Assembly: GCF_026151205.1 (NCBI RefSeq)
Contig: NC_087072.1
Coordinates: 11,756,169 to 11,820,168, forward strand
Length of the DNA stretch: 64,000 bases
Origin: Bolinopsis microptera
Lineage: Eukaryota > Ctenophora > Tentaculata > Lobata > Bolinopsidae
Direction: 5' to 3'
The position numbers and the translations under genes are program-made. How positions within the stretch are numbered: position 1 is the first letter of the stretch; each line of letters begins with the position of its first letter. Shown one piece after another: positions 1-37,800 of the stretch. The notes under the pieces were generated by a model. The model searched no databases, was not told the DNA's origin, and saw only the letters and a program-made list of their open reading frames with translations.

Positions 1-383
1 TTCACTCCGTCTTAATTATGTCTGACTCTATACAACATGGCGAAATCAGTTCTTCTGACGATCCCCCTGCTCCTCCTCCTCGTGTCACTTTGTACTTTAT
101 GTCGGGTACTTTTCCCACTCCACCTGTTGCCCCGACAGCTCCGACTCCGAATCCAAGTCTTCCTATCCAAAATGATATGGTGAGCAGCTCCTCTCCGGAT
201 GATTAGATTCGCTCCCTATCTTCATTTCCAGGTATGTATTGATCAGCTTTTCTCCACCGCCCCTGGGGGATGATAATCCCCCATAGTTATTCAATCCAGT
301 CTAAGTTTACTTTATAAATTCATTACTTTTCCACATCTATGAAATCTTTTCGTTTTTAGGTTGGAAGAATAGCGTAAAACCAT

Positions 384-1030
384 TTGGATTCAACTGCTCC
401 TACTAGAATGTATTTACAACCTGGTAAGTCTCCAAGTCTCCGAGTCTCCTTCCAACATCGTTCCATTGTTTCTTTTACTGTGTATCTCTCTTGTTCCACT
501 GGTGTTCCTCTTAATTATCAACCTCTCTGCGTCTCTCTCTTCTTCTCACACCATGTCTCCGTCTTCCGCTCGTTTCCAACATTTTGGACAGTTCCCTGTA
601 TTATCGTACTGTCCGTCCCTCCAGCTTTCCATATCTGTGTCTTCTTCTAATGTTTCACGTGTCTCCTTCTAATGTGTCACGTGTCTCTTTCCAATGTCTC
701 CATGTATCTTCTTCCAATGTCTCCATGTTTCTTCTCCCAAAGTGCTCTCGATTCTCCTTCACAGGTCTCCGCGTGTCTCCTTTCATATGTCTCTTCCCAA
801 TGCCATGTGTCTTCGTCCAATGTCTCCATGTGTCTTCCTCCAATGTGCTCACGTGTCTCCTTCACAATTCTCCACGTGTCTCCTCCAAATGTTTCCATAT
901 GTCTCTTTCCAATGTCTCCATGTGTCTTCTTCCAATTTGCTCACGTGTCTCCTTCACAAGTCTCCACGTGTCTCCTTCACGTGTCTCTATGAGTCTTCCT
1001 CCAATATTTTAACGTGTCTTTTTCATCCAT
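384..1030. repeat. pyrimidine-biased short tandem repeat
   Basis: From about 650 the sequence is made of short degenerate units such as TCTCCATGTGTCTTCTTCC, CACGTGTCTCC and TCCAATG, strongly C/T on the plus strand. The open frames here read as Ser/Cys/Val/Phe-rich translations of the repeat and look like no known protein. No gene is supported. Positions 1-383 are similar C/T-rich unique-looking sequence with no exon I can defend. Confidence 0.7.
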
Positions 1031-1339
1031 CTTCCAGCTTCCTTTCAGCTTTTCATCAATTGTCCCTACGTACTGAGCAATGTGCATCAGTTCTTTTGGA
1101 CTATGTTTTCTTTTGGACTCTTCCCTGTTTGCTCTTTCACGTCTTTTTCTTGTCTCTTTCTGCAGGTCCCCATTATTTCTATTGTTGGAAACTCTCATTC
1201 TTCATGCCTGGGACTTTTATCCGTCTTCCTTTTTCATTCACTTTTTCTTTAAGTTTCGTTTCCCTTCTAGTTCCCGTTTTCTTCTTTTTCGACCATCCTC
1301 TCCAAGCTATCTATTCTTCGTTTCTGCTTCTCTATTTTT

Positions 1340-1680
1340 TCCGATCCATGCTTCCATGTGACCTCCAATCCATCTGTCATCCAATCTGTCTTCGATCCAC
1401 ACTTCCATGCAACCTCCAATCCATGTGTCCTCCAATCTGTCTCCAAGCCATGCTTACATACGACCTCCAATCCATGTGTCCTCCAATCTGTCTCCGATCC
1501 ATGCTTACATACGACCTCCAATCCATGTGTCCTCCAATCTGTCTCCGATCCATGCTTCTATGTGACCTCCAATCCATGTGTCCTCCAATCTGTCTCCGAT
1601 TCATCTTTCTATGTGACCTCGGGTCCATCTGTCATCCAATCTGTCTCCGATCCAATGTCTCCGATCCAATGTCTCCTCGT
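1340..1680. repeat. 51-bp minisatellite
   Basis: A unit of about 51 bp containing GATCCATGCTTACATACGAC and CCATGTGTCCTCCAATC repeats roughly six times. Because 51 is divisible by three, all frames stay open and give an artificial 17-residue protein repeat on both strands. Copies differ by substitutions, mostly in the half carrying TTACATACGAC versus TTCTATGTGAC. Confidence 0.85.
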
Positions 1681-1719
1681 ATCTCCTTCAAATGTTTATT
1701 CTTCGATATTTACCCTGGA

Positions 1720-2560
1720 ATGATGTTTAATGCTCTGTTACCACTCACCATGTCCCAATATTATTTCCACTATTTACCACAAGTATTGCCACTGGAAACC
1801 CCCAAAATGGTTTTTGTTTTCCCCTTTCCTTTTCGATCACCAAGGTCCAACGCCCCTTTTAAATTCCTTGTATCGCCCAGCGAATTATTTTGGGCCCCGA
1901 TGGTTATTTCAAATACCACCTCACCCGTCCCATCCCCCTGCCCCATAGCATTTCCACTATTTATCACCTTTCCATGCTCCAATAGTAATTCCCACATTTT
2001 CCTCTCCATGGCTCCAATGAAACCCCCACTATTTCCCCTCCCCCATGCTCCAATAGAAATTTCCCCATTTTTGTACCTCTCCCCGCTCCAATAGTAATTC
2101 CACTTTTCCCCCCTATCCCCTTGCTCCTTTTGAAAATTCCACTTTGTCACCCTCGCCATATCCTAGAAATTCCACATTGTACCTTCACGGGGGCCAAATT
2201 TTTAATTACTATGCCCCCCCCTTCACAGGGTCAATAGTAATTCCCTATTGTACATGTGTACCACCACCCCATAGAAATTTCCACTAGTCCCCACTGTCCC
2301 CCACCCCCAAATAGTAATTTTATTTGTCACCCTAGTACCCCACCCCCCAATGTAATTCCTAGTACCACTAGTCCCACCATCCAATAGAAAATTCCCTAGT
2401 CACCATGTACCACCCCCTCAATAGAAATTCATTTGTACCCTGTACCCCCACTCCAATAGTATTTCCCTAGTCACCATTTCCCCACCTCCCTGAAATTTTC
2501 AATGTCACCATATTTTCCACCACCCCCAATAGAAATTTTATAGTATTGCCCCCCAAAAAA
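1720..2560. repeat. degenerate C-rich satellite with CCAATAGTAATTCC motif
   Basis: Variants of CCAATAGTAATTCC and CCAATAGAAATTTCC recur every 30-60 bp between runs of C. The motif becomes less exact, and the C and A runs longer, from left to right. It appears to be the readable front part of the array that turns into pure homopolymer runs further right. Confidence 0.6.
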
Positions 2561-4750
2561 TTTTCCCCGGGGGATTCATATGAAAACAAAAAAAAAAAAC
2601 AAGCAAAGACGAACAACCGTTTAACTTCGTTTAATAGAGGAAATTAAATACTTTATAAAACTTTCAAATTAAGAACTTTTAAACGATAGCCTTCTTTTTT
2701 GAAAAAAATTGATATGGCTCGCCCCCGGTGCTCTTTTAAAAAAAAAACCACGGCCAATTTAACACATATTTTAATTTTCCCTTTTTTTTTTTTTTTTAAT
2801 CACCCCCTACAAACCATGTTTTTTTTGCCCTTATTTTCTTAAAACCCATTTTACATTTCTCACCCGTTTTTCTGGTTTTTTTTTTCATAAAACGTTCTCA
2901 ACCCCTTTTCCCCTATTTAATTACAAAAATATTTTTATTTTTCTTTCTTTCAAAATTTTTTTTTACCCCAAAAAACCCCCAAAAAAAAAGTTTTTTCATA
3001 CTGTTTTTTTCACATAGAAAAAAAAAATACCCTCCCCCCAAAAAAAAAACGGGCCCCAAAAAAAACCCCTTCCCCCAAAAAATCCCTTAAATTCCTTAAA
3101 TCCCTCTCTTTTTTCCCCCCTCCTTTCAAAGCCCCCCCTTTTTAAAAAATTTTATTTCCCTCCCCTTCCCCTCCTTTTTTTAATCCCCCCCTTCCTTTTT
3201 TTTTAAAAAAAAAAATTTACGTCAAAAAAAAAAAATTTACAACCCTGAATTTTTTTTCCACGGCCCCCCAATTGGGTTTGGGGGTAAAGATGCAGGGCCG
3301 GGTTTTTCTTTTAAAAAAAAAAAATAAATCCTTCCCCCCCATTTAACTCCCCTCTTTTAAAAAAACTTCAAAAACCTTTTTTCCCGAAATTTCCCCCCCC
3401 TTAAACAGTTTCCCCCCTTTTTTTAATTTTTCCCCCCTGTGGGAAAAAAAAAATTTTTAAAAAACAAAATTTTCCCCCAATTTTTGGCCTTTTAGAATTT
3501 TGCCCTTTGTTTTTTGGGCAAAAATTTTTTTTGTAAAATTTTTTTGTTTTTTTAAAAAAGGGTTTAAAATTTCCCCCCCTTTTTTAAAAAAAAAACTATT
3601 TTTTAAAAAAGGGGTTTTTGGGGATTTGTTGCGGGGGGGGGGGGGGGGGTTTTTGGTTTTGGGAAAAAAAAAAAAAAAAAATTTGGGGGGGGGGTGGAAA
3701 AACCCCAAAAAAAATTTTTTTTTGAAAAGCCCCTTTGGGGGGGGGGGTTTATTAAAAGGGGGGGGGGGGGGGGGTTTGGGGGGGGGGGGGGGGGAAAAAA
3801 AATTTTTTTCCCCGGGGGGGGGGGTTTTGGGGGGGGAATTTGGGGGGGGGGGTTTTTTGGGGTTGGGGGGGGGCCCCGGTTGGGGGGGGGGGCCCCGTCC
3901 CGGGCCGGGGGGGGGTTTTGGGGGGGGGGGGCCCAAAAGGGGGGGGGGGGGGGGCCCCGGTTTTTTGGGGGGGGGGGGGGGGGTTGGGGGGGGGTTTTTG
4001 GGGTGGGGGCCCTTTTTTTTTGTTTGGCCTTTTAAAAAAGGGGGGCCCCCCCTGGTGCCCCTTTTTTCGGGGTTTTGTGGGGGGGGTTTGGGGGTTTTTT
4101 TTGGTTGGTTGGTTGGGTTTTTTTGTTTTTGGGGGGGGGGGGGGGGGTTTTTTGAACCCTTGCCCCCGGGGGGGGGTTTTGCCGTTGGTGGGTTTTGTTT
4201 TTTCCCCCTTTTTTCCCCCGGCGGGGGGGGGGCCTTTTTCCCGCCCCAAAAATTTTTTTTCTTTTTTCCCCTTTTTTGTCCGGGGGGGGGGGGGTGGGGG
4301 GGGGGGGGGGGGGGGTGGGGGGGGGGGGGGAGGAAAGGGTTTTGTTTTTTGGGCCCGGAAAGGGGGGCGGGGGGGGGGGGGGGGGGGGGGGGGGGGTTTG
4401 GGGGGGGGTTTTGGAAAAGGGTTTTTTTTTTTCTTTTTTCTTTTTGGGGGGGTTTTTTTGGGTTTTTTTTTGGGGGGTTTTGGGGGGGGGGTTTTTTTGG
4501 GGGGGGTTTTTGGGGGTTGGGGGGGGGGGGGGTTTTTTTTGGGCGTTTTTTTTTTTGGGTGGAAGGGTTTGGGGGGGGGGGGGTTCCCGGGGGGGTGGGG
4601 GTTTTTTTTGGGGGGGGGGGTTTGGGTTTTTTTGGGGGGGGGGGGGGGTTTTAAAAAAAAAAAAAGGGGGGGGGGGCGGGGGGGGTTTTTGGCGGTTTTT
4701 TTTTTGGGGCCCGGGGGGGGGGGGTGTTGGGGGGGAAAAGGGGGGGGGTT
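2561..4750. other. homopolymer-run tract, probable assembly artefact
   Basis: Nearly the whole stretch is runs of one base: A, T and C runs up to about 3600, then mainly G and T with G runs of up to about 28. Run length grows towards 4300-4740 and then stops abruptly at ordinary sequence. The long Pro/Gly/Lys/Phe open frames on both strands are by-products of the runs. The one-sided gradient with a sharp right edge fits a poorly supported long-read consensus over a C/G-rich satellite better than a biological sequence. No feature inside it should be trusted. Confidence 0.8.
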
Positions 4751-18875: not shown

Positions 18876-21800
18876 TCAAGTTTTGTTCTCTCCTTGTTTA
18901 CCTGTTTCTTGTATTATCTCCGTCAAATCTTTAATGTAAATTTGTATCTTTTGTAACTGTTGCTCGGTTGTCTCTGACGCCTGAAAATTTATATTTTCCT
19001 TCAAAATGTCGCATGATATGAAGGCACTATACCAACTTCTAAAAATGCTTTGACCTTAAAACTTTATTAACTTTCTGGTGCAAGTAATAGTGGCAATTAA
19101 AAAAGATCTCTTTTTTTAGTGAAAGAAAGTGCTAAAGATTGAAAATATTCACTAATTGCTAAACAGTGCCAAAAGGAGGAGGCTATGAGCCAGAGAAATA
19201 TGATCCCTGGCTGTGAGCCAGAGGAATATGATCCCTGGCTGAATTTCTAAAAGTTAGCTATTCCTACGGTCAAGTTAATCCAGGCATGCAAATGGCTGCG
19301 ATGCTATTTATTAGTTCTGTTTTGATTGTCATGGTGCGTCTACATGCGAGACAGGTAGATAACTATTAGTTGTCTCTAGGCAACAATGCTTACTACCTGT
19401 AGGGATCACGTGTTGGGTCACGTGTTGGGTCACGTGTTGGGTCACGTGTTGGGTCACGTGTTGGGTACTTAGTACCCAGGGTACTAGCCTACCTCTTTAT
19501 GTTTGGACTAACATTCAGATTAGTATGCAATATTGCATCATGAGAACGTTTCATAGTATAAGAAAAACAGCATAAATTATGATATTTTCTAAAATTTATG
19601 CCATGTGTCTTTAACCCCATCTTTCTGCAAGTTTCATGTAATAAAAGTGTTAACGTAATTAGGATATAGTCTATCACATACTATATTGTACATATTAGTA
19701 TTACGTTAATTCAACAAATAATGGGAGCAAAGTGCTCAAATAATTGAATGTGACAAAAGTAGTCCCGTAATTATTGTATTTTGATTCGTGTAACCGACGG
19801 TTGACCAAAGTATGACCAAAGTATGGTAATTTGCTCAATAGTCAATAATATATAATTATAATCAATAATATATATCATGTATTATAATGTTCAATAAAAA
19901 AGGTAAAACTAAAATGAGAAAATGTCTGACCTCAGCTTTAGTTCTCATTTGTTTATGTATGAGCATGAAAAGGTTGTGTGTGGCCATCTTTATTCTGCCC
20001 AGTAGTAGAGTTTGTCTAGCGGCGGTGTTCTTAATGTGAGTCCACACACTCTCCCACTTTACTGCTGCACTCTGCGCAGTCTCTAGCTGCATCTGAAATG
20101 GAACAATGTTAGCAATACCATCTTCAAACATGTATTTTAGGGTTTTTAACTTAAATAAATTGCAAGATTTTGATTCTGCATCTTTTAACAGGGCTCTTCC
20201 TTATTTAACACTCAATTTTCTGATCATTCGGCTGAGTCGACTGAGGGGACATTACACAAATGACAAATGTGTAACTTCTCATTATATATCCAGTTGATTG
20301 AACTGTTTCAAGAAAATGTATGAATATTGACCGTAAATTTTAAATACAGCACAATAGTAGCCTGCTTTCTACAACTAGCCAACCTGAAGAGCTGAAGGTT
20401 GGCTAGTTGATTGTTGAACCTACCTGAAGGTTGGCTAGTTGATTGTTGAACCTACCTGAAGGTTGGCTAGTTGATTCTAGAACCTACCTGAAGGTTGGCT
20501 AGTTGATTCTAGAACCTACCTGAAGGTTGGCTAGTTGATTGTTGAACCTACCTGAAGGTTTGCTAGTTGATTCTAGAACCTACCTGAAGGTTGGCTAGTT
20601 GATTGTTGAACCTACCTGAAAGTTGGCTAGTTGATTCTAGAACCTACCTGAAGGTTGGCTAGTTGATTGTTGAACCTACCTGAAGGTTTGCTAGTTGATT
20701 CTAGAACCTACCTGAAAGTTGGCTAGTTGATTCTAGAACCTACCTGAAAGTTGGCTAGTTGATTCTTGAACCTACCTGAAGGTTGGCTAGTTGATTCTAG
20801 AACCTACCTGAAGGTTGGCTAGTTGATTCTTGAACCTACCTGAAGGTTGGCTAGTTGATTCTAGAACCTACCTGAAGGTTCGCTAGTTAATTCTAGAACC
20901 TACCTGAAGGTTGGCTAGTTGATTGTTGAACCTACCTGAAGGTTCGCTAGTCGATTCTAGAACCTACCTGAAGGTTGGCTAGTTGATTGTTGAAGCTCAT
21001 GATGTCGTTGTTTTTCTCCTCCACGAATTTCATAAGGTTAGCTTTTTCCTTCTCCAGTCGGTCCTGGTTATCTATCTCCCGGTTGAGTAGGTGTTGATGG
21101 GTTGATACCAGGGTGTCGTACCTGAGACATATCTGTGTAAAATAAAAATTGCGAAAATAACGAGAATTCCACTACTTTTCCTCCTGTGTGATAGTGAAAA
21201 TTGTAATAAAGGTGATAATCCCTCTACTAAAAGTATTGGGTACCTAAGGATGGCGTCTTTGTTCTCCGAGAATTCGTCTGCTGTCTCCAAGACTCTATCC
21301 ATGTATTTTTGGAACACCATATGTTTGGTCAGCTTAATTTTCTGAACTTCCAATTCGTGTTGTAGATGCTCTGTTACAAGAGTTTGCTTAGCTTTAAAAC
21401 CAACTTAAATTGCGTTCCATAAAATTATCGGAACACTTATGATACTAAAGCTGGGCTTTTCCAGCCTCTTCTTCATTAACATGCTGACTAAAATAGATAA
21501 TTTTCATAACATTTTAAGATAACTAACTGGCTTCTTCAGATAAGGCTTCGATCTCTCTCATTCTCTGAAGTTTAGCATCCCTTTCAACATTTGCCTTCTT
21601 GACCGCTCGATTCTTTTTTGCATCATTCTCCTTCAAAAACTTGTCAAACTTTAATAATGATTCTTTGAGTGTATACTCCTTCCGTTCAAGTTCCTCTCTC
21701 CGTTGCTGGATCGACTCCATTTTCATTTGAAACTCTTCTTTTTGTGCATTTAATGCCTGGCGAGAAAACAAATTACTAATTAGTCATAAAGTTTAAAGTG

Positions 21801-22101
21801 TTCTTTTTTTAAACTCGGTCAATGAAATAAATCACTGATTGTGACTTTTGTTCAATATATGCATTAAATGATAGATGACGGAAATTCGCTGTGATTACTG
21901 TCATCCATTATAAGGAATGTCTTCTATAGAATTTAGAAAGAAAGCAAACTTTGCAAATACCTGTTCAACTTCCGTCATCTCACGACGCTTCTCCAGCAGT
22001 CGTGTTGCTGGAGTGAGGTGCTCATCTTCTCTTTCTGGTAGCTTTACTAGAAGCTTGTCCTCGAACGTTGTACGAAAATACTCTTCTAATGAAACTGGCA
22101 T
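18876..22101 (-). CDS. CFAP73: cilia- and flagella-associated protein 73 (CCDC42 family)
   Basis: A coiled-coil axonemal protein; the Chlamydomonas relative (MIA2/FAP73) works with FAP100 in the MIA complex that controls inner dynein arm I1 in motile cilia. Six exons on the minus strand: 22101-21961, 21756-21528, 21370-21244, 21121-20968, 20092-19931, 18980-18876. All junction phases agree, giving 305 residues (human CFAP73 about 308). The N terminus MPVSLEEYFR..KLPE..RLLEKRRE, the block KFDKFLKENDAKKNRAVKKA and the near-terminal WTHIKNTAARQTLLLGRIKMA match the CCDC42/CFAP73 family, with the N terminus closer to CFAP73. The protein is mostly predicted coiled coil. The last exon is taken to run to TGA at 18876-18878; a further exon after a possible GTAAAC donor cannot be excluded. 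Intron 4 holds a minisatellite that iterates the splice donor. Confidence 0.9.
19407..19464. repeat. 12-bp array of five CACGTG boxes in CFAP73 intron 5
   Basis: CACGTGTTGGGT is repeated five times with exact 12-bp spacing (boxes at 19407, 19419, 19431, 19443, 19455). Each unit carries the palindromic E-box CACGTG, mostly as GTCACGTG, bound by bHLH-ZIP factors such as USF or MITF/TFE. Function is not shown, and the array may be a simple expansion. Confidence 0.85.
20190..20252 (-). repeat. SINE fragment
   Basis: CATTCGGCTGAGTCGACTGAG and the neighbouring TTATTTAACACTCAATTTTC match, in reverse complement, the body of the SINE near 5050-5100. Only the body part is present, with no tRNA-like head. 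It lies in CFAP73 intron 4, downstream of the minisatellite in gene direction. Confidence 0.55.
20379..20994 (-). repeat. 32-bp minisatellite iterating the CFAP73 exon 4 splice donor
   Basis: About 18 tandem copies of a 32-bp unit. Read on the gene strand, each unit is the last 27 bases of exon 4 (ending CTAGCCAACCTTCAG) followed by GTAGG, the first five intron bases. The true exon end forms the first copy, at 20994-20968. Variants differ in one short segment (CAACAATC, CTAGAATC, CAAGAATC) and in a few G/A changes. Every copy keeps the CAG|GTAGG donor. Confidence 0.95.
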
Positions 22102-22154
22102 GCTCTACTATTTAGAATGTCTTGAGTCACAATAGTAAGACAGTTCAAATATTA

Positions 22155-22706
22155 TCATGTCAAAAAGAACACGGAGAAACACAAAGAACACTGTACTCTA
22201 GTGTATAGTTACTCACTGAGAAACACAAAGAACACTGTACTCTAGTGCATAGTTACTCACTGAGAAACACAAAGAACACTGTACTCTAGTGCATAGTTAC
22301 TCACTGAGAAACACAAAGAACACTGTACTCTAATGCATTATTACTCACTGAGAAACACAAAGAACACTGTACTCTAGTGCATAGTTACTCACTGAGAAAC
22401 ACAAAGAACACTGTACTCTAGTGCATAGTTACTCACTGAGAAACACAAAGAACACTGTACTCTAGTGCATAGTTACTCACTGAGAAACACAAAGAACACT
22501 GTACTCTAATGCATTATTACTCACTGAGAAACACAAAGAACACTGTACTCTAGTGCATAGTTACTCACTGAGAAACACAAAGAACACTGTACTCTAGTGC
22601 ATAGTTATTCACTGAGAAACACAAAGAACACTGTACTCTAGTGCATAGTTACTCACTGAGAAACACAAAGAACACTGTACTCTAGTGCATAGTTACTCAC
22701 TTACTC
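22155..22706 (-). repeat. 44-bp minisatellite upstream of the CFAP73 coding region
   Basis: About 12 copies of a 44-bp unit, very uniform. On the gene strand every unit contains TCTCA|GTGAGTAACT, a strong splice donor word, and the upstream edge of the array is itself GTGAGTAAGTGAGTAACT. If CFAP73 has a non-coding first exon ending near 22706, this array again copies a donor; that exon is inferred, not shown. Confidence 0.85.
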
Positions 22707-22932
22707 ACGGTACTTATTATAATTATCTATAGAGAAAACTGAGAAATTGTACTTTAAATGAATCGCAAGATTGAAGTAATACCGCTAAATTTTGTCTAAT
22801 GTCTTATTTCAAAAGTATACTGTTTATTTTATAAACTGTCAAGATTAAAGTTTTCATAACAATCAAAAAAACGAATATTTACTGGTCAAGATTTAAAAAG
22901 CTTTACTTTAAAGTCATAAATAAGTAATGAAT

Positions 22933-25554
22933 TTATCTCTGAGTAGTCCTCCATCCAACAGAAGTTCTAGCAGACAGAAACATATTATATGTTAACTCAT
23001 AATCTTTAAGATCAGATTGGCTGAGAGATGGCTTAGTATTTGATATAGTTTCCAGCAGAACTTCTTGGTTGAGAATAGCGGGTTTTTCATAAGATGCTGC
23101 GATGGCCTTCTTAACCAGGCTGAGCTGGGCGTTGTATATTATTGCCTTGATATCTGCACCTGAGTAAAAAGCAGTTTCAGCTGCTAAAGATGATGTGTTT
23201 ATATTAAGTTCTCGTTTCATATCCCTTAGCAGGCAGTCCCAAATTTGCACTCTTTCACTTGAACTAGGCATGGGACAAAGTACTCTTCTACCTATTCGTC
23301 CAGGGCGCAAAATGGCCGGATCAATAGCATCAGGACGAGATGTGGCAGCTATGATAAATACACTTTCATGCTTTGACACTCCGTCTAATTCAGTCAGGAG
23401 CTGATTCACAACTCTGTCCATAACTCCGGTAGAATCATTTCCTCTGCAGGGGGCTAATGAATCAAACTCATCAAAGAATATCAAAGTTGGGCTCATTTCC
23501 TCCGCATTTCTGAATAAATTACGAACAGCCTCTTCACTGGCTCCGATATATTTATTGAGAAGCTCAGGCCCTTTAACAGTGAGGAAGTTCATATCTAGTT
23601 CATTTGCTATTCCTTTTACTATAAGAGTTTTCCCAACACCAGGAGGTCCAAATAACAAGAGACCTCTGTTCAGCTGAAATGGGATTTGTGAAAACAAGTG
23701 AGGGTGTTTGAAAGGTAATATGAGCATTTTATTAATCTCTTCTTTGACATCCAAGAGTCCACCACAGTCTGACAACTTCAGATCACCAGTCATAGGCTTT
23801 ATTTTCTGCAAATCAAATAAACTGCAACTCTCATCAAATTCCTTTTCTTTATAACTGTCAGATCTGCAGATCGTCTTTGATTTGAACATTTTACTTAGCT
23901 TCACTATCTCGCCAACACTCAAATTAGAACGGAGAGATAATTTGTCATAAAGATTTTTGAGAGCACCCCTCTCAACTTTATTGCTGAGCAGATTTCTTAA
24001 AAACGGCAAATGCTGTGTTACAGGTAGCAATGGTAGTGTAAAAACAGTATCACTAGCATCCATAAGAAGTGGGTGACAGGAAGATAAACTTTGGCAAGAG
24101 AAAATTATCTCTACATTATTCTGTTTGTAAATCTTAAAAATGTTGACAAGCTTTTGAGCTAAACGTATCCCAAAGATCTCATCCCCAGAGGGCTCTTCAG
24201 TTTTTGAACGAGCTGGTAGAACTGAATCCAGGTTGTCAAGCAACAAAATGGCAGGTTGACTAAAACAGCATTCACAAAGAAGATCAGTTATTTCTTTAAC
24301 AACATTGTCTACCCGTTTCCCACGCAAAAGAGTTACATTACTATATAAAACAAAAAAGTTACGAAGACGTTGATCACAAGTCAATCGCTTGAGAAGGAAA
24401 GTTTTTCCAGCCCCATAGCATTGTGTCTTAGAAGAGAGTAGAGACAATGATTTCTGAGAGAATGGGAACGATTGTAGAATTTTGTCAACTAATGATTCAT
24501 AAACAATTCCATGAGGATTAGTGCTGTCATCAGAATCACACTTTTCAAATTGAAGATCCTGCTTCTTTACAATTTTTGGGGTGTTTCCTTCAGTAGAGAT
24601 ATCAATCTTCCAGCCATGATTATTAGCATCAACAATTATCGAGTAATCTTTCACATCAGAGTCAAAAACTGGGGCATCAAAAGGAGGAACATTTTTCAAT
24701 TGTAGATCTATGCTTTCTTTTTGATACTTAGGTCTCAAAAAGCTAACAGTAATTATTTCATTCAGATTAAAATAGTAGGACAGTATTTGATCCGCCATGA
24801 CTGTTGAGTTTAATGGTACCACAAGACATTTTAGGCAGCAATTCAAACTGCAGAGAATTTTGCTGGAATTCTCTTTAGATACTTTACACACCAAAACAGA
24901 ATGAATACTAAGATTGTTTTTAGAACAGAAGCACTTGGCACTTAATTGAGCATCATATGAGTTAGATGCAGATGGATTCCAGCTGGACAATTTAAAGATT
25001 GCAGACGAATTTGATGAAAAATAAGCATTTGGCGATTTTTGTGTAGAACTTGAGTCATTTAAGGAAACACTGACTTTTGTGTAACTATTGAGTATCTTCG
25101 CATTAGATGGTTTAACACTGGTAACATTAAATTGTATACTAATGGATGAATTTATAAATCCGATAACAGGGTCCCCTTCTTTCACAATTTGAGTTTGGTT
25201 CATAAGCTCCTTTTCAATGAATTCTCTATGAAGACCTGCAATACTGTAATCAGCACTAGAACAACTCAAAGTGAGATCAGTAATAGGGATTAAGTTCTCG
25301 ATTTCATCAAGCATCACTAATCCCTCACACAGGCCAAGCAACCTACCATAGGTGCTGTTTAACCAAACCACACTTTCATCTTCAACATTGTCTTCTTTCA
25401 GAGCAAAGTAAAATTTTCCATCAGAGCCATTCTGTTTCAAGCCAACACCATGAGCTTCAGAAGAGCTGCTATTCGTGAATGTTGTATAGAAGTTCCTTGA
25501 GCAGCGGAGAAAGCAGTTTTGACCAAAGTCAAACTCTAATGAGACATTTATCAT
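22933..25554 (-). CDS. PEX1: peroxisome biogenesis factor 1, AAA ATPase
   Basis: PEX1 pairs with PEX6 in a hexamer on the peroxisome that pulls ubiquitinated PEX5 out of the membrane after cargo import. One uninterrupted 873-codon frame. The N-terminal region has VVWLNSTYGRLLGL and binding-domain-like sequence. Domain D1 (about 355-540) has a weakened P-loop CYGAGKT (379-385), lacking the first Gly of the usual motif, and LLLDNLD in place of Walker B. D2 is intact: GPPGVGKT (636-643), FFDEFDSLAP (693-702) and ATSRPDAIDPAILRPGR (737-753), with GPELLNKYIGASE between. A degenerate D1 and active D2 is the known PEX1 arrangement. It is much shorter than the human protein (about 1283), losing mostly linker and the extra N-terminal part. 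An in-frame TAA precedes the ATG directly, and TTTATTTCAG|G lies seven bases before it, suggesting a spliced or trans-spliced leader. Confidence 0.93.
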   Translation of the reverse strand: MINVSLEFDFGQNCFLRCSRNFYTTFTNSSSSEAHGVGLKQNGSDGKFYFALKEDNVEDESVVWLNSTYGRLLGLCEGLVMLDEIENLIPITDLTLSCSSADYSIAGLHREFIEKELMNQTQIVKEGDPVIGFINSSISIQFNVTSVKPSNAKILNSYTKVSVSLNDSSSTQKSPNAYFSSNSSAIFKLSSWNPSASNSYDAQLSAKCFCSKNNLSIHSVLVCKVSKENSSKILCSLNCCLKCLVVPLNSTVMADQILSYYFNLNEIITVSFLRPKYQKESIDLQLKNVPPFDAPVFDSDVKDYSIIVDANNHGWKIDISTEGNTPKIVKKQDLQFEKCDSDDSTNPHGIVYESLVDKILQSFPFSQKSLSLLSSKTQCYGAGKTFLLKRLTCDQRLRNFFVLYSNVTLLRGKRVDNVVKEITDLLCECCFSQPAILLLDNLDSVLPARSKTEEPSGDEIFGIRLAQKLVNIFKIYKQNNVEIIFSCQSLSSCHPLLMDASDTVFTLPLLPVTQHLPFLRNLLSNKVERGALKNLYDKLSLRSNLSVGEIVKLSKMFKSKTICRSDSYKEKEFDESCSLFDLQKIKPMTGDLKLSDCGGLLDVKEEINKMLILPFKHPHLFSQIPFQLNRGLLLFGPPGVGKTLIVKGIANELDMNFLTVKGPELLNKYIGASEEAVRNLFRNAEEMSPTLIFFDEFDSLAPCRGNDSTGVMDRVVNQLLTELDGVSKHESVFIIAATSRPDAIDPAILRPGRIGRRVLCPMPSSSERVQIWDCLLRDMKRELNINTSSLAAETAFYSGADIKAIIYNAQLSLVKKAIAASYEKPAILNQEVLLETISNTKPSLSQSDLKDYELTYNMFLSARTSVGWRTTQR

Positions 25555-31897: not shown

Positions 31898-34800
31898 TTA
31901 ATATTTCAAAGGCGCAGTTTTATCAGGAAGAGAAGAGGAGGAACTGGAGTTGTCCCTGAATTTTGATCCTTTCTTGTTGAGGCTCCTATCAGTATCAGCT
32001 CCTTTACTAAACGTGTAGTAGATCAGGATTATTACGAACATTATCGCGCCTGAAACAGTATAGTATTAGTACTATTTAATAGTAGTGATTACCCTTACAG
32101 TAGATCAGTTAAAATACAACAATTGCAATGGGTTCATAATGGAATCTTAGGCTTATCAAACCTTAACAGGACTTTGCCTCTTAAACCCGGACGGGCACAT
32201 ACCGATACTCGCCGAGTGAACAGAGGTGATCACGGTACAGGACGGGCACATACCGATACATTTTGTGTATACTCTGCCCTTAACCCTGGCACATACTGAT
32301 CCTTTTAAGCCAGTTCTAGAAACCAAGACCACAAACTCTCTATCAGGAGACATATAATACGATTTAACATATTTGGTCATAATATTATTCCAGCCGATAT
32401 TTGTTCCCTTGATCACAACATCTGTTGCGTCAAGAAAATTTAGATGAGATATAAATAAAGAGGGAAATTAGGTCCGTTACTCGGCGACACGTGCCACAAT
32501 TACAAAAGAGACCGTCAGTACGTTCATTGACATCATGCCCAGCGTTTGACATGCCGACATGCACATTGCACTGTGATATTACATACCGACATGCACATTG
32601 CACTGTGATATTACATACCGACATGCACATTGCACTGTGATATTACATACCGACATGCACATTGCACTGTGATATTACATACCGACATGCACATTGCACT
32701 GTGATATTACATACCGACATGCACATTGCACTGTGATATTACATACCGACATGCACATAGCACTGTGATATTACATACCGACATGCACATTGCACTGTGA
32801 TATTACATACCGACATGCACATTGCACTGTGATATTACATACCGACATGCACATTGCACTGTGATATTACATACCGACATGCACATTGCACTGTGATATT
32901 ACATACCGACATGAACATTACACTGTGATATTACATACCGACATGAACATTGCACTGTGATATTACATACCGACATGCACAGTGATAGTGTTGTGCAGGG
33001 TCTTGGGGAGCGGAACATCCACCACGTACACCAGGAACTCAGTAGAGTAGTTGCAGATCGTGTCCTCCATCACAACTACTCGGTAGTGGAACAGCTCTGA
33101 AAGGGGAGGTGAGTGAGGCATCTACCATTTGTAGACTAGGAAAACCTATCAATATTACTGGAGGTTTTTTTTTTCACGTTTATCTCCCCGGACATGCTAT
33201 AATCTAAAACGTGACTAGTGCCCTAATACACAGCAGTAACAAGCTAATAGTGCACTATATATCACTATATAAAGTGATGGAATATTCATGCACCAACACA
33301 TGTGTCAACACCGAGATTAGAAACCCGCTAAGCAGATCACTCCAACATAATGGAGTAATACATGAAAGGCTACAATATTAAAGTGGTACAAAGTTGCGGT
33401 ATTACAATATAAAAGTGGTACAATGTTGCGGTATTACAATATTAGAGTGGTACAATGTTGCAGTGTTACAATATAAAAGTGGTACAAAGTTGCGGTATTA
33501 CAATATAAAAGTTGTACAATGTTGCGGTATTACAATAAAAAAGTGGTACAATGTTGCGGTATTACAATATAAAAGTGGTACAATGTTGCGGTATTACAAT
33601 AGTAAAGTGGTACAATGTTGCAGTGTTACAATATAAAAGTGGTAAAAAGTTGCGGTATTACAATATAAAAGTGGTACAATGTTGCGGTATTACAATATAA
33701 AAGTGGTACAATGTTGCGGTATTACAATATTAGAGTGGTACAATGTTGCAGTGTTACAATATAAAAGTGGTACAAAGTTGCGGTATTACAATATAAAAGT
33801 TGTACAATGTTGCGGTATTACAATATAAAAGTGGTAAAAAGTTGCGGTATTACAATATAAAAGTGGTACAAAGTTGCGGTATTACAATATAAAAGTGGTA
33901 CAAAGTTGCGGTATTACAATATAAAAGTGGTACAAAGTTGCGGTATTACAATATAAAAGTGGTACAAAGTTGCGGTATTACAATATAAAAGTGGTACAAT
34001 GTTGCGGTATTACAATATAAAAGTGGTACAATGTTGCGGTATTACAATATAAAAGTGGTACAATGTTGCGGTATTCCAATATAAAAGTGGTAAAAAGTTG
34101 CGTTATTACAATATAAAAGTGGTACAAAGTTGCGGTATTACAATATAAAAGTGGTACAATGTTGCGGTATTACAATATAAAAGTGGTACAATGTTGCGGT
34201 ATTCCAATATAAAAGTGGTACAAAGTTGCGGTATTACAATATTAAAGTGGTACAATGTTGCGGTATTCCAATATAAAAGTGGTACAAAGTTGCGGTATTC
34301 CAATATATGTCATCCAATGTATCATGTATCATACATTTATGGAACTATTCAAAATTCTTAAATTTGATGTTCCCCAGTCGATTAAAGATCTTTTCAAGTT
34401 CTGTCCTAGAAAGGAAAAACTTCGTCTGATCGTCCCATTACTGAGGTTAGATATCCCCCAACAGAAATTTTTGTACACCTCTACGAAAATTTGGAATGAT
34501 CTCATCCCCTATGTATTCGAAATTATGTGATGCTAATGAAGATGGGATAATAATCCCGGGTTCTTCCAAAAATTCAGACTTATCAGGCTTGTCAGGTAAT
34601 TTTAAATCTAACCTTAAAAAGTACTTGCTATCCCTCCAAAATCAAGATGACCCTAATACATGGTAACTAATCTATATTATATCTCAAATATAATATATTA
34701 TATTTGTATTATAAATATATATACATAGTGGATGGTTGAAGGGGTTTCAAGCACATGTCACTCTCAAATCTAATGATAAGCAGTGGCCTTTGGCACTTCA

Positions 34801-37800
34801 AACCTCCTCTGATTTGTTTATTATTGATATTGTTTGATTGTGCCGTAAAAATAAATATTTGTTTTATTAAATATTTGTTTTATTCAATATTTGTTTTATT
34901 AAATATTTGTTTTATTAAATATTTGTTTTATTAAATATTTGTTTTATTAAATATTTGTTTTATTAAATATTTGTTTTATTAAATATTTGTTTTATTAAAT
35001 ATTTGTTTTATTAAATATTTGTTTTATTAAATATTTGTTTTATTAAATATTTGTTTTATTAAATATTTGTTTCATTAAATATTTGTTTTATTAAATATTT
35101 GTTTTATTAAATATTTGTTTTATTAAATATTTGTTTTATTAAATATTTGTTTTATTAAATATTTGTTTTATTAAATATTTGTTTTATTAAATATTTGTTT
35201 TATTAAATATTTGTTTTATTAAATATTTGTTTTATTAAATATTTGTTTTATTAATATAAAATTACAATATAACACTCACCAGATCCCAGAAATACGATAG
35301 AACAGTTGGTGTAGTTGCAACTAGGCGACAAATTGTTTTCTCCAGCTTTGTAAATCTGAAACTCTTCTCTTCCGTTCAGCTCCGTGATCAGATAAGTGTG
35401 ACTAGGTGTGATTAGGTGTGATTAGGTGTGACTAAGTGTGGTAAAGTTATAAGTTAGTGTGCCTAGTTTTACCACAAAGTAATGGTTTAGACAACAGACA
35501 TTACAATTATAGAAATTTCGTACATAGCTGGAATTAATGGTACAGATAACAGAAAGGTGATGAGGTTTGGAAGGGTGAAGGTGTTAAAATACCTACCGGT
35601 AAAGTGCAGTAACAAGTTATGGATCTGTATGGAAGTAGTTAGTTGTAGGATACGAAATTAGACGAAAATCCAAATTTTGACCCAGCGTATAGTTTAAAAG
35701 TATGTCGAATAGTTTTCGGTCTCCCTAAATAATGTTGCATGAAGAGAAGGGGTCCGCAGACTGCCGGCAGCCGGAGGGGGGGGGGGGGGGGGGGGGCAGT
35801 GAAAAGTGTTACATCGTGACACACAGCATGGCAGATGGTTGATCACACAAAACATGACAATGATGGAAACTGCAATTCTACTTATTAGAATATATATGGA
35901 GCATATAAACTTTGCTAAATAAAGAAGCCTCCTCCTCCCCCCACTAGAACTATTAGCGCCCCCCCCCCCCCCCCACTAGGACTATTAGCGCCCCCCACCC
36001 ACTAAGACTATTAGCGCCCCCCCCCCCCACTATAACTAATAGCCCCCCCCCCCACTAGAACTATTAGCGCCCCCCCCCACTAGAACTATAAGCGCCCCCC
36101 CCCCCACTAGGACTATTAGCACCCCCCCACTAGGACTATTGGCGCCCCCCCCCCACTATAACTAATAGCGCCCCCCCCCCCCCCCACTAGGACTATTAGC
36201 ACCCCCCCACTAGGACTATTGGCGCCCCCCCCCCCCCCACTATAACTAATAGCGCCCCCCCCCCCCCCCCCCCCCACTATGACTATTAGCCCCCCCCCCC
36301 CCCCCACTATGACTATTAGCCCCCCCCCCCCCCCATTAGGGCTATTAGCGCCTCCCCCCTACTCAGTACTCACTTTAAAGGTAGAGGGTCCTCTCCCAAC
36401 CTCATGATAAGCAGCTCCGGTGTGAATATTGAGGTGTATGGAACCTTGTACACAATCTGTCTACAATCACTGTGAGCTGCTAAATCTATGAGAATATCGG
36501 AGTTTAGGGTGCAAAATTAAGATCTAAATTGAAATGTCTAGTTCAAATAGACTTTGACTTTGGATTATTATTCTTATTTCAAAGTTGAAGCCTTTGATTT
36601 TTTAAATAGCAGTAGTCTTGAAACCTTATCACAGCTTTACTATACAGGGAAATGAACTTTTTCACGTTTGATAAAAATAGTATGTTCTATTTTTAAGAGC
36701 TCGGTCAGACAGGTGTAAGATGTTGAGAGAGGGGTAAAGGGGTAGGGAGAGGGGGGGGGGGTAGGGAGAGGGGGGTAGGGAGAGGGGGGGGGGGGGGGGT
36801 AGGGAGAGGGGTGGTAGGGAGGGGGGAACCTACCGGATATCTTTAACTCGTCTGAACAAGAACATTCAGCCCGACTATCCGAGTTATTACACTGTTTAAA
36901 TTCGTACGAGTGTTTAGAAACGGCTTTCGCAGATCTGGGAATAGGTTGACTGGGGTCCGCATTGTAGACGTTGTGTGAAGTGGAGATCTCTCGACCGTGG
37001 ATTGAGGGGGGTCGGTAGTTGACTGGTAGTGACGTCATCACGTTGTCTCCTGAGGGTTAGTGTTTGCTGGAAGTGACGTCACTATAAAGTCTACCTAATG
37101 TTTAAAATGTGGCCTGTACCCCTGGAGCTGGTACGGAGTTGACAGTGTGTTGGTGTTAAACTGGGCAGGAATTTCAGCACATTCCTGAAAAATAGTCTAC
37201 ACGGTAAACACTAAAATCAAACTTTCGGGCTCGCACTCTAGACAAGTTATGGAGTCTCAAGTCTACTGAAGTGCGGACCCCTGCAGTCACATCTCTATAT
37301 TGCAGGGAAAACACCTTAGACAACCCAGAAGCCCGCATGGGCATAGTGTAAATTCGTTCGAGAGATCAGAAAATTGCCACAAATTAGAAAACCCTGCAGT
37401 CTTTCAGGGGATTCTGGAATTTTACAAACATGAAATTAATAACTAACCGTGAGGTGCCATGTAGTGAGGGGAGAGGAAGGCAGCTTGGTCCGGAACGTGA
37501 GGATACCTCTGGACCAGCCTGGTTTGAGGATCACAAGCTTGCTGGACTGAGAACAGTACTGAAGGTACTTCGCACTTCAAACTGGCGGAAAGGTACGGCG
37601 TGATCAGTACCGGGGTGTAGGTACCTCCCTCTGTACTCTCGTGACTTAGACCAATCTGAGGTTTACTGTTTAAAGTCACAAGTTTGCAGCTAGTATTCTT
37701 ACAAAAGCGAAGTAAATTATATTATAATTGTACTGGTCATATTATTGTATACTGCAACTGATTATACTGAAGTAATATTAATTATATTATTTTGATTTAA

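Follow-up and report, generated by a model that had tools for sequence, protein, structure and literature searches.

The window analysed here, a whole stretch of 64,000 nucleotides (nt) from the ctenophore Bolinopsis microptera, contains a minus-strand gene for the cilium protein CFAP73, with six exons that all have GT-AG borders. Exons were placed by eye with the translation as a check, and the last exon was extended to the stop codon. The joined protein carries DUF4200 (1.5e-24) and matches its best solved relative, CFAP73 8j07_j3, with an E value of 1.6e-52; this alignment crosses the join of exons 4 and 5, NNQLANLQ/MQLETAQ (slashes mark splice junctions throughout). The predicted exon 4 (21121-20968) is well supported, and a minisatellite spans its 3′ end and continues into intron 4. 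The features that matter for the analysis are as follows, in window coordinates.

21961-22101, minus strand: CFAP73 exon 1 with the ATG (gene model)
21528-21756, minus strand: CFAP73 exon 2 (gene model and DUF4200, protein residues 35-159)
21244-21391, minus strand: CFAP73 exon 3 (gene model and DUF4200 search)
20968-21121, minus strand: CFAP73 exon 4, 154 nt, with its 3′ end on a codon boundary, phase 0 (gene model and alignment with solved CFAP73 spanning the 3′ end)
20968-20994, minus strand: exonic repeat copy, the last 27 nt of exon 4, TTCAACAATCAACTAGCCAACCTTCAG (script)
20962-20970, minus strand: true 5′ splice site CAG/GTAGGT, intron starting at 20967 (script and gene model)
20093-20967, minus strand: CFAP73 intron 4, 875 nt, of which the array takes 576 nt; acceptor TTCCATTTCAG outside the array (gene model)
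20392-20967, minus strand: 18 intronic 32-bp units (GTAGG plus 27 nt), with CAG/GTAGG at 20967 - 32k, k = 0 to 17 (TRF, script)
20372-20385, plus strand: 14-nt inverted copy of the unit past the far end of the array, with perfect arms and a 10-nt spacer
19931-20092, minus strand: CFAP73 exon 5 (gene model and alignment with solved CFAP73)

No Rfam family was found at 19000-23000. Upstream of CFAP73, at a distance of approximately 0.8 kb, the minus strand also carries an uninterrupted PEX1-like open reading frame (ORF) of 873 codons (22936-25554, minus strand) with profile matches to PEX-1N (2.9e-12) and AAA (3.4e-51). A separate array of 12 units of 44 bp (22170-22701, minus strand) sits just upstream of the CFAP73 start codon; its units contain GTGAGTAA, varied in some copies, and have a pyrimidine-rich TTCTTTGTGTTTCTCA end, and it might be a ladder of splice sites in a 5′ UTR intron.

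The 32-bp unit spans the exon-intron junction, combining 27 nt from the end of exon 4 with intronic GTAGG, and the true junction is the first copy, as an initial annotation of this DNA had proposed and as our script and gene model confirm. TRF places the array at 20392-20988 (period 32, 18.7 copies, 93% matches, 0 indels), and by script all intronic units are exactly 32 nt, with GTAGG starting at 20967, 20935 and so on to 20423. The intron thereby contains equal 5′ splice sites arranged as a ladder, CAG/GTAGG occurring at 18 places. The annotation had seen this ladder but counted about 18 copies beyond the true junction, whereas there are 17 such decoys; the last (18th) copy ends CAG/CTCTTC and is followed by the 14-nt inverted copy at 20372-20385. 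Likewise, the extent that it gave, 20379-20994, is repeat from 20392 to 20994, but 20379-20391 is not array. The remaining 299 nt of intron 4, acceptor included, are non-repeat.

Copies of the unit are similar without being uniform. Six of the 32 columns vary and there are 8 distinct intronic unit types in mixed order; CAGGTAGGTT is unchanged in 18 of 18 intronic units, and 6 of 18 are identical to the exon copy. The exon-adjacent intronic copy differs from the exon copy by 4 positions, making it one of the two most diverged, and the two copies farthest from exon 4 are identical to it, which argues against simple outward copying from the exon. Exon 4 is the likely source of the repeat, judging from its sequence, because its end NNQLANLQ aligns with CFAP73 of other organisms (NNQVAKLK in 8glv) and, across 27 positions, the intronic copies show 0 to 4 differences from it. 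An 18-mer of the unit, with up to two mismatches, has 20 matches in the window against none in 100 shuffles, which excludes a chance origin. In an assembly-wide search that skips very common words, the array was found in one place, without the copies elsewhere in the genome that would mark a dispersed repeat or satellite family.

The annotation had expected later donors mostly to shift the reading frame, which the added sequence contradicts. It reads GTA GGT TCW ASA ATC RAC TAG, and because exon 4 ends in phase 0, 17 of 17 later donors meet the same in-frame TAG in the first added unit, at codon 7 past the junction, whatever the frame at the next exon. Only the first of the 18 CFAP73 donors is predicted to be productive. 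The stop itself is ordinary, in that read-through into an intron usually meets one. In splicing assays with equal donors, the intron-proximal one, nearest the acceptor, is often favoured; if that preference held in CFAP73, the gene would make little protein. A 361-nt piece (the exon end and about nine copies) folds better than its shuffles (z -4.2). In the fold of exon 4 with the array, predicted accessibility differs little among donors 1-18 (0.23-0.37), and RNA structure that hides the later donors was rejected as the selector.

Such an arrangement, which the annotation did not know as a described class, has a precedent in the 31-bp variable number tandem repeat (VNTR) of human CBS (PMC2630376, PMC1395315, PMC5188458). 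That VNTR, c.1444_1467+7(16_21) (PMC2630376, PMC1395315), has a unit reported to join 24 nt from the end of exon 13 to 7 nt of intron 13 (exon and intron numbers from PMC1395315 and PMC5188458). The CFAP73 array is of the same design. In both, the unit joins an exon end to the first intron bases with the 5′ splice site (24 + 7 nt in CBS, 27 nt + GTAGG in CFAP73), the unit is of constant length with point substitutions (31 and 32 bp), and copy numbers are alike (16-21 against 18 intronic plus one exonic); in CFAP73, the true junction lies in the edge copy, beside a coding exon that homology indicates is intact. The gene and the organism differ, and it is for CBS alone that polymorphic copy number and altered enzyme activity have been reported. 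Lievers 2001 reportedly also described alternative splicing at the CBS donor. A review citing Lievers 2001 states that additional CBS repeats had been found to reduce CBS activity and to increase homocysteine (PMC5188458). CBS 844ins68 is comparable in being a reported duplication over an intron/exon junction that gives a working product via splice-site choice (PMC2630376). Among related systems, an intronic 38-bp VNTR in TERT intron 6 is also reported to influence splicing through its copy number, but it lies more than 1 kb from the junctions and does not multiply splice sites (PMC3948165). The Rogers model of intron gain and tandem-repeat introns are related but differ (PMC4974935, PMC3629103). 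In fission yeast (Schizosaccharomyces), introns made of 24-nt tandem repeats are likewise reported with copies carrying splice signals, but there the repeats create new introns (PMC3629103), whereas in CFAP73 the repeat covers neither the acceptor nor the whole intron. Going by titles and the beginnings of abstracts in the open-access literature, no description of such arrays as a class was recognized.

We consider it probable that the CFAP73 array is a junction-spanning minisatellite of the CBS type, tolerated through use of the first donor. It would have started when a short stretch across the junction (27 nt of exon 4, 5 nt of intron 4) was duplicated in tandem, creating a second donor; slippage or unequal exchange would then have expanded the array to 18 intronic copies. 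Cutting at the first donor would remove the array with the intron and leave the protein unchanged. What lets the array persist is that an intact exon still adjoins the first donor, and the sequence supports both an intact exon 4 and the joined CFAP73 protein. The 17 later donors may be silent decoys or, given the stop 7 codons past the junction, may feed nonsense-mediated decay. The array probably evolves almost neutrally, although it may carry a cost that depends on copy number, as reported for CBS. Among the observations against this reading, RNA folding gave no reason for the first donor winning, and the invariant donor columns need not be expected of a purely neutral array. None of the 9 donor columns varies, against 6 of the 23 others, for which column counting by hand gives a chance of about 0.11. 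Donor conservation was therefore rejected as a sign of function, as this difference is not significant by column count and other arrays are mixed. The latter comparison is a rough guide only, with arrays chosen by donor word, one row (L013) one base out of register, one walk (L016) that ended after one copy and some other walks that stopped early.

Alternatively, the array might control dose, with later-donor use rising with copy number, the resulting codon-7-stop mRNAs being destroyed and array length tuning CFAP73 output; the 17 identical competing donors, all leading to one stop, speak for this. The tendency of the intron-proximal donor to win among equals would fit, as would the lower CBS activity reported with more repeats (PMC5188458). 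However, most extensions into an intron can be expected to meet an early stop, which therefore shows no design, and apart from the invariant donor columns nothing points to constraint; we regard dose control as unlikely. Recursive splicing, in which each CAG/GTAGG seam acts as both acceptor and donor and whole units are removed stepwise without trace, draws on the fact that intronic units start with GTAGG and end in CTTCAG or TTTCAG, such that removing whole units re-forms CAG/GTAGG. That property is automatic in any CAG/GT donor array, however. Of the features of a recursive site (AG/GT, pyrimidine tract, branch point), CAG/GT is present at 18 CFAP73 seams, but ATCAACTAGCCAACCTT, the sequence that precedes it, does not look by eye like a strong pyrimidine tract. 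We hold this mechanism to be very improbable.

We give equally little credence to intron gain by the Rogers model, in which tandem duplication of an AGGT-bearing exon segment, and hence the array, made intron 4. The unit does hold AG/GT with exonic sequence, and introns of 24-nt repeats are reported in fission yeast (PMC3629103), but the model derives both intron ends from repeat copies, whereas the intron 4 acceptor, beside exon 5 (20092), lies 299 nt past the array and is no copy of the repeat unit. An assembly artefact is the least credible of these readings: tandem arrays are error-prone in assembly, but the mixed order of 8 unit types at an exact period, the intact flanks and gene, and the recurrence of similar arrays in other genes all speak against it. 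The preferred reading remains a tolerated, junction-spanning minisatellite.

Four further donor ladders have protein homology support. One is in the same window:

32549-32981, minus strand: CATSPERB-like donor ladder, 13 donors TCG/GTATGT spaced 32 bp apart (32970 to 32586)

Its exon ends at 32971 with a short copy of its own (a tail lacking 7 nt of the unit), and the next exon is proposed from approximately 32421; adding that exon improves the CATSPERB_C match slightly, from 1.9e-8 (34.4 bits) to 2e-9 (37.6 bits). In a homeobox gene (L020), the exon ends ...NLAQIQVQ and is followed by 21 donors 35 bp apart and then by VWFQNRRAKCKK; the homeodomain match strengthens from 3.2e-13 without the next exon to 5.1e-23 with it. 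Skipping the array at the first donor improves the family matches (homeodomain and CATSPERB_C), which counts in favour of the preferred reading. A MABP1/WDR62-like gene (L015) has 9 donors, with profile positions 54-113 before the array (1e-5) and 112-185 in a downstream exon (2.3e-23), both fragments that fall below the family's whole-protein cut-off. The fourth (L024) has 12 donors 34 bp apart on an exon matching JmjC_2 (1.5e-11), the name that Pfam gives to what we take to be a RIOX-like gene. Together with CFAP73, the five ladders hold 73 donors, of which the 5 first ones are predicted to be productive, 67 meet a stop in the extension and 1 is frame-shifted (for L015 and L024, frame was judged from the extension alone, with no next exon appended). 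In 5 of 5 ladders, only the first donor would thus be productive by sequence.

Acceptors can be involved as well. A TAF2-like gene (L017; contig C8, approximately 7.27 Mb; Pfam TPR_TAF2_C 2.2e-30) has an acceptor-anchored counterpart, an array of about ten 37-bp units ending TTATTTCAG, the last of which is the proposed real acceptor. The units resemble whole mini-introns (GTAAGT...TTATTTCAG). In L028 (contig C1, approximately 22.08 Mb), about 180 copies of a 13-bp unit extend as far as the acceptor proposed for a Ras-family exon, presumably of RAB23 (Pfam gives Ras), with no AG in the neighbouring copies shown.

Genome-wide, the donor word occurs in threefold tandem 1,775 times and its reversal 116 times, against single counts of 14,871 and 8,375; the stricter word CAGGTAAGT gives 431 tandem matches against 0 reversed. 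A control word gives 1,604 (1,425 reversed) and a second control, a pattern with slightly fewer fixed bases, 1,321 (3,196 reversed). Long arrays inflate these match counts, and single-count normalization covers the donor word and its reversal only. By eye, among the matches listed, there are at least 6 donor-word arrays on contig C1 and at least 7 CAGTGRNGT arrays. We dropped the claim of donor-specific array enrichment, though it is not disproved, with controls spanning 116 to 3,196 (0 for the strict word). There is no clear donor-specific excess. The tandem excess of the donor word over its reversal is larger than their single-count ratio, which counts against a reading by general growth, and there may be some donor preference. 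The annotation had seen the period as anchored on the junction; the unit does span it, but special anchoring is doubtful, as other words occur in tandem about as often or more. General minisatellite growth that sometimes captures a junction probably accounts for the arrays. Minisatellites are abundant in this genome, and in the simplest reading arrays form at many sites, with those that take in a donor surviving because the first donor still works.

Support from homology was found for 2 donor-anchored and 1 acceptor-anchored array among 20 donor-word loci, for 1 donor-anchored and 1 acceptor-abutting array among 8 control-word loci, and for 2 of the 20 window arrays passing our filter (CFAP73 included); these counts are not rates, as the homology search was uneven and partly hand-picked. 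Sequences from 10 of the 20 donor-word loci were sent to Pfam, which supported the junction at L020, L015 and L017, found a LIM domain in the upstream ORF of L003, gave weak, unrelated matches only for L006 and L021, and gave none for L007, L013, L014 and L019. The L003 junction exon matched designed proteins only in the PDB (best 4.6e-5, no stretch passing alone) and was not counted. From the control-word loci, only L024 and L028 (2 of 8) were sent, chosen by recognized ORFs. None of the 12 arrays found in ten fixed pieces of 10 kb was demonstrated to lie on a coding junction, so the class may be rarer than the picked loci suggest; 9 edge ORFs from 8 of these 12 arrays had no convincing Pfam match, with one weak match (0.011) below the cut-off. 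Codon-usage scoring contributed little to gene finding: one run gave nothing and another listed the ORF that led to CATSPERB.

We put forward only tentatively, as a bolder proposition that we think rather less likely to hold than to fail, that junction-spanning donor ladders form a class that recurs across this genome and that, faced with up to 21 near-identical donors, its spliceosome reliably selects the one farthest upstream. If true, this upstream choice would contrast with the intron-proximal preference known from assays and point to first-come, co-transcriptional or exon-defining donor choice; the arrays would be invisible to selection, and minisatellites could settle on exon ends. Each ladder sets many equal 5′ splice sites in natural competition, and the encoded protein requires the first to win. 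One human array of the kind, that of CBS, has been linked to lower enzyme activity. With several ladders in one genome, even in a conserved homeobox gene, RNA reads could reveal both the position effect and the cost of decoys.

Array length also appears to evolve. Two inverted duplicate loci (L007 and L008; contig C2, approximately 118 kb and 257 kb) have a common 41-bp donor array. Over 230 bp, their 3′ flanks are approximately 99% alike; on the upstream side, the nearest 100 bp are identical, with similarity falling off farther out in an ungapped comparison. Because these near-identical flanks enclose 9 and 16 donors, respectively, copy number seems to change after duplication, at least at these candidate junction loci. 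Other long arrays were noted in passing. Within the window, 29 units of 32 bp and 25 units of 16 bp occupy 33371-34307 and 34852-35254, respectively. On contig C2 (L010, approximately 621-625 kb), an array of 32 units of 77 bp runs straight into a 25-bp array with the common donor GTACGT, and a similar 25-bp array lies at approximately 656.6 kb.
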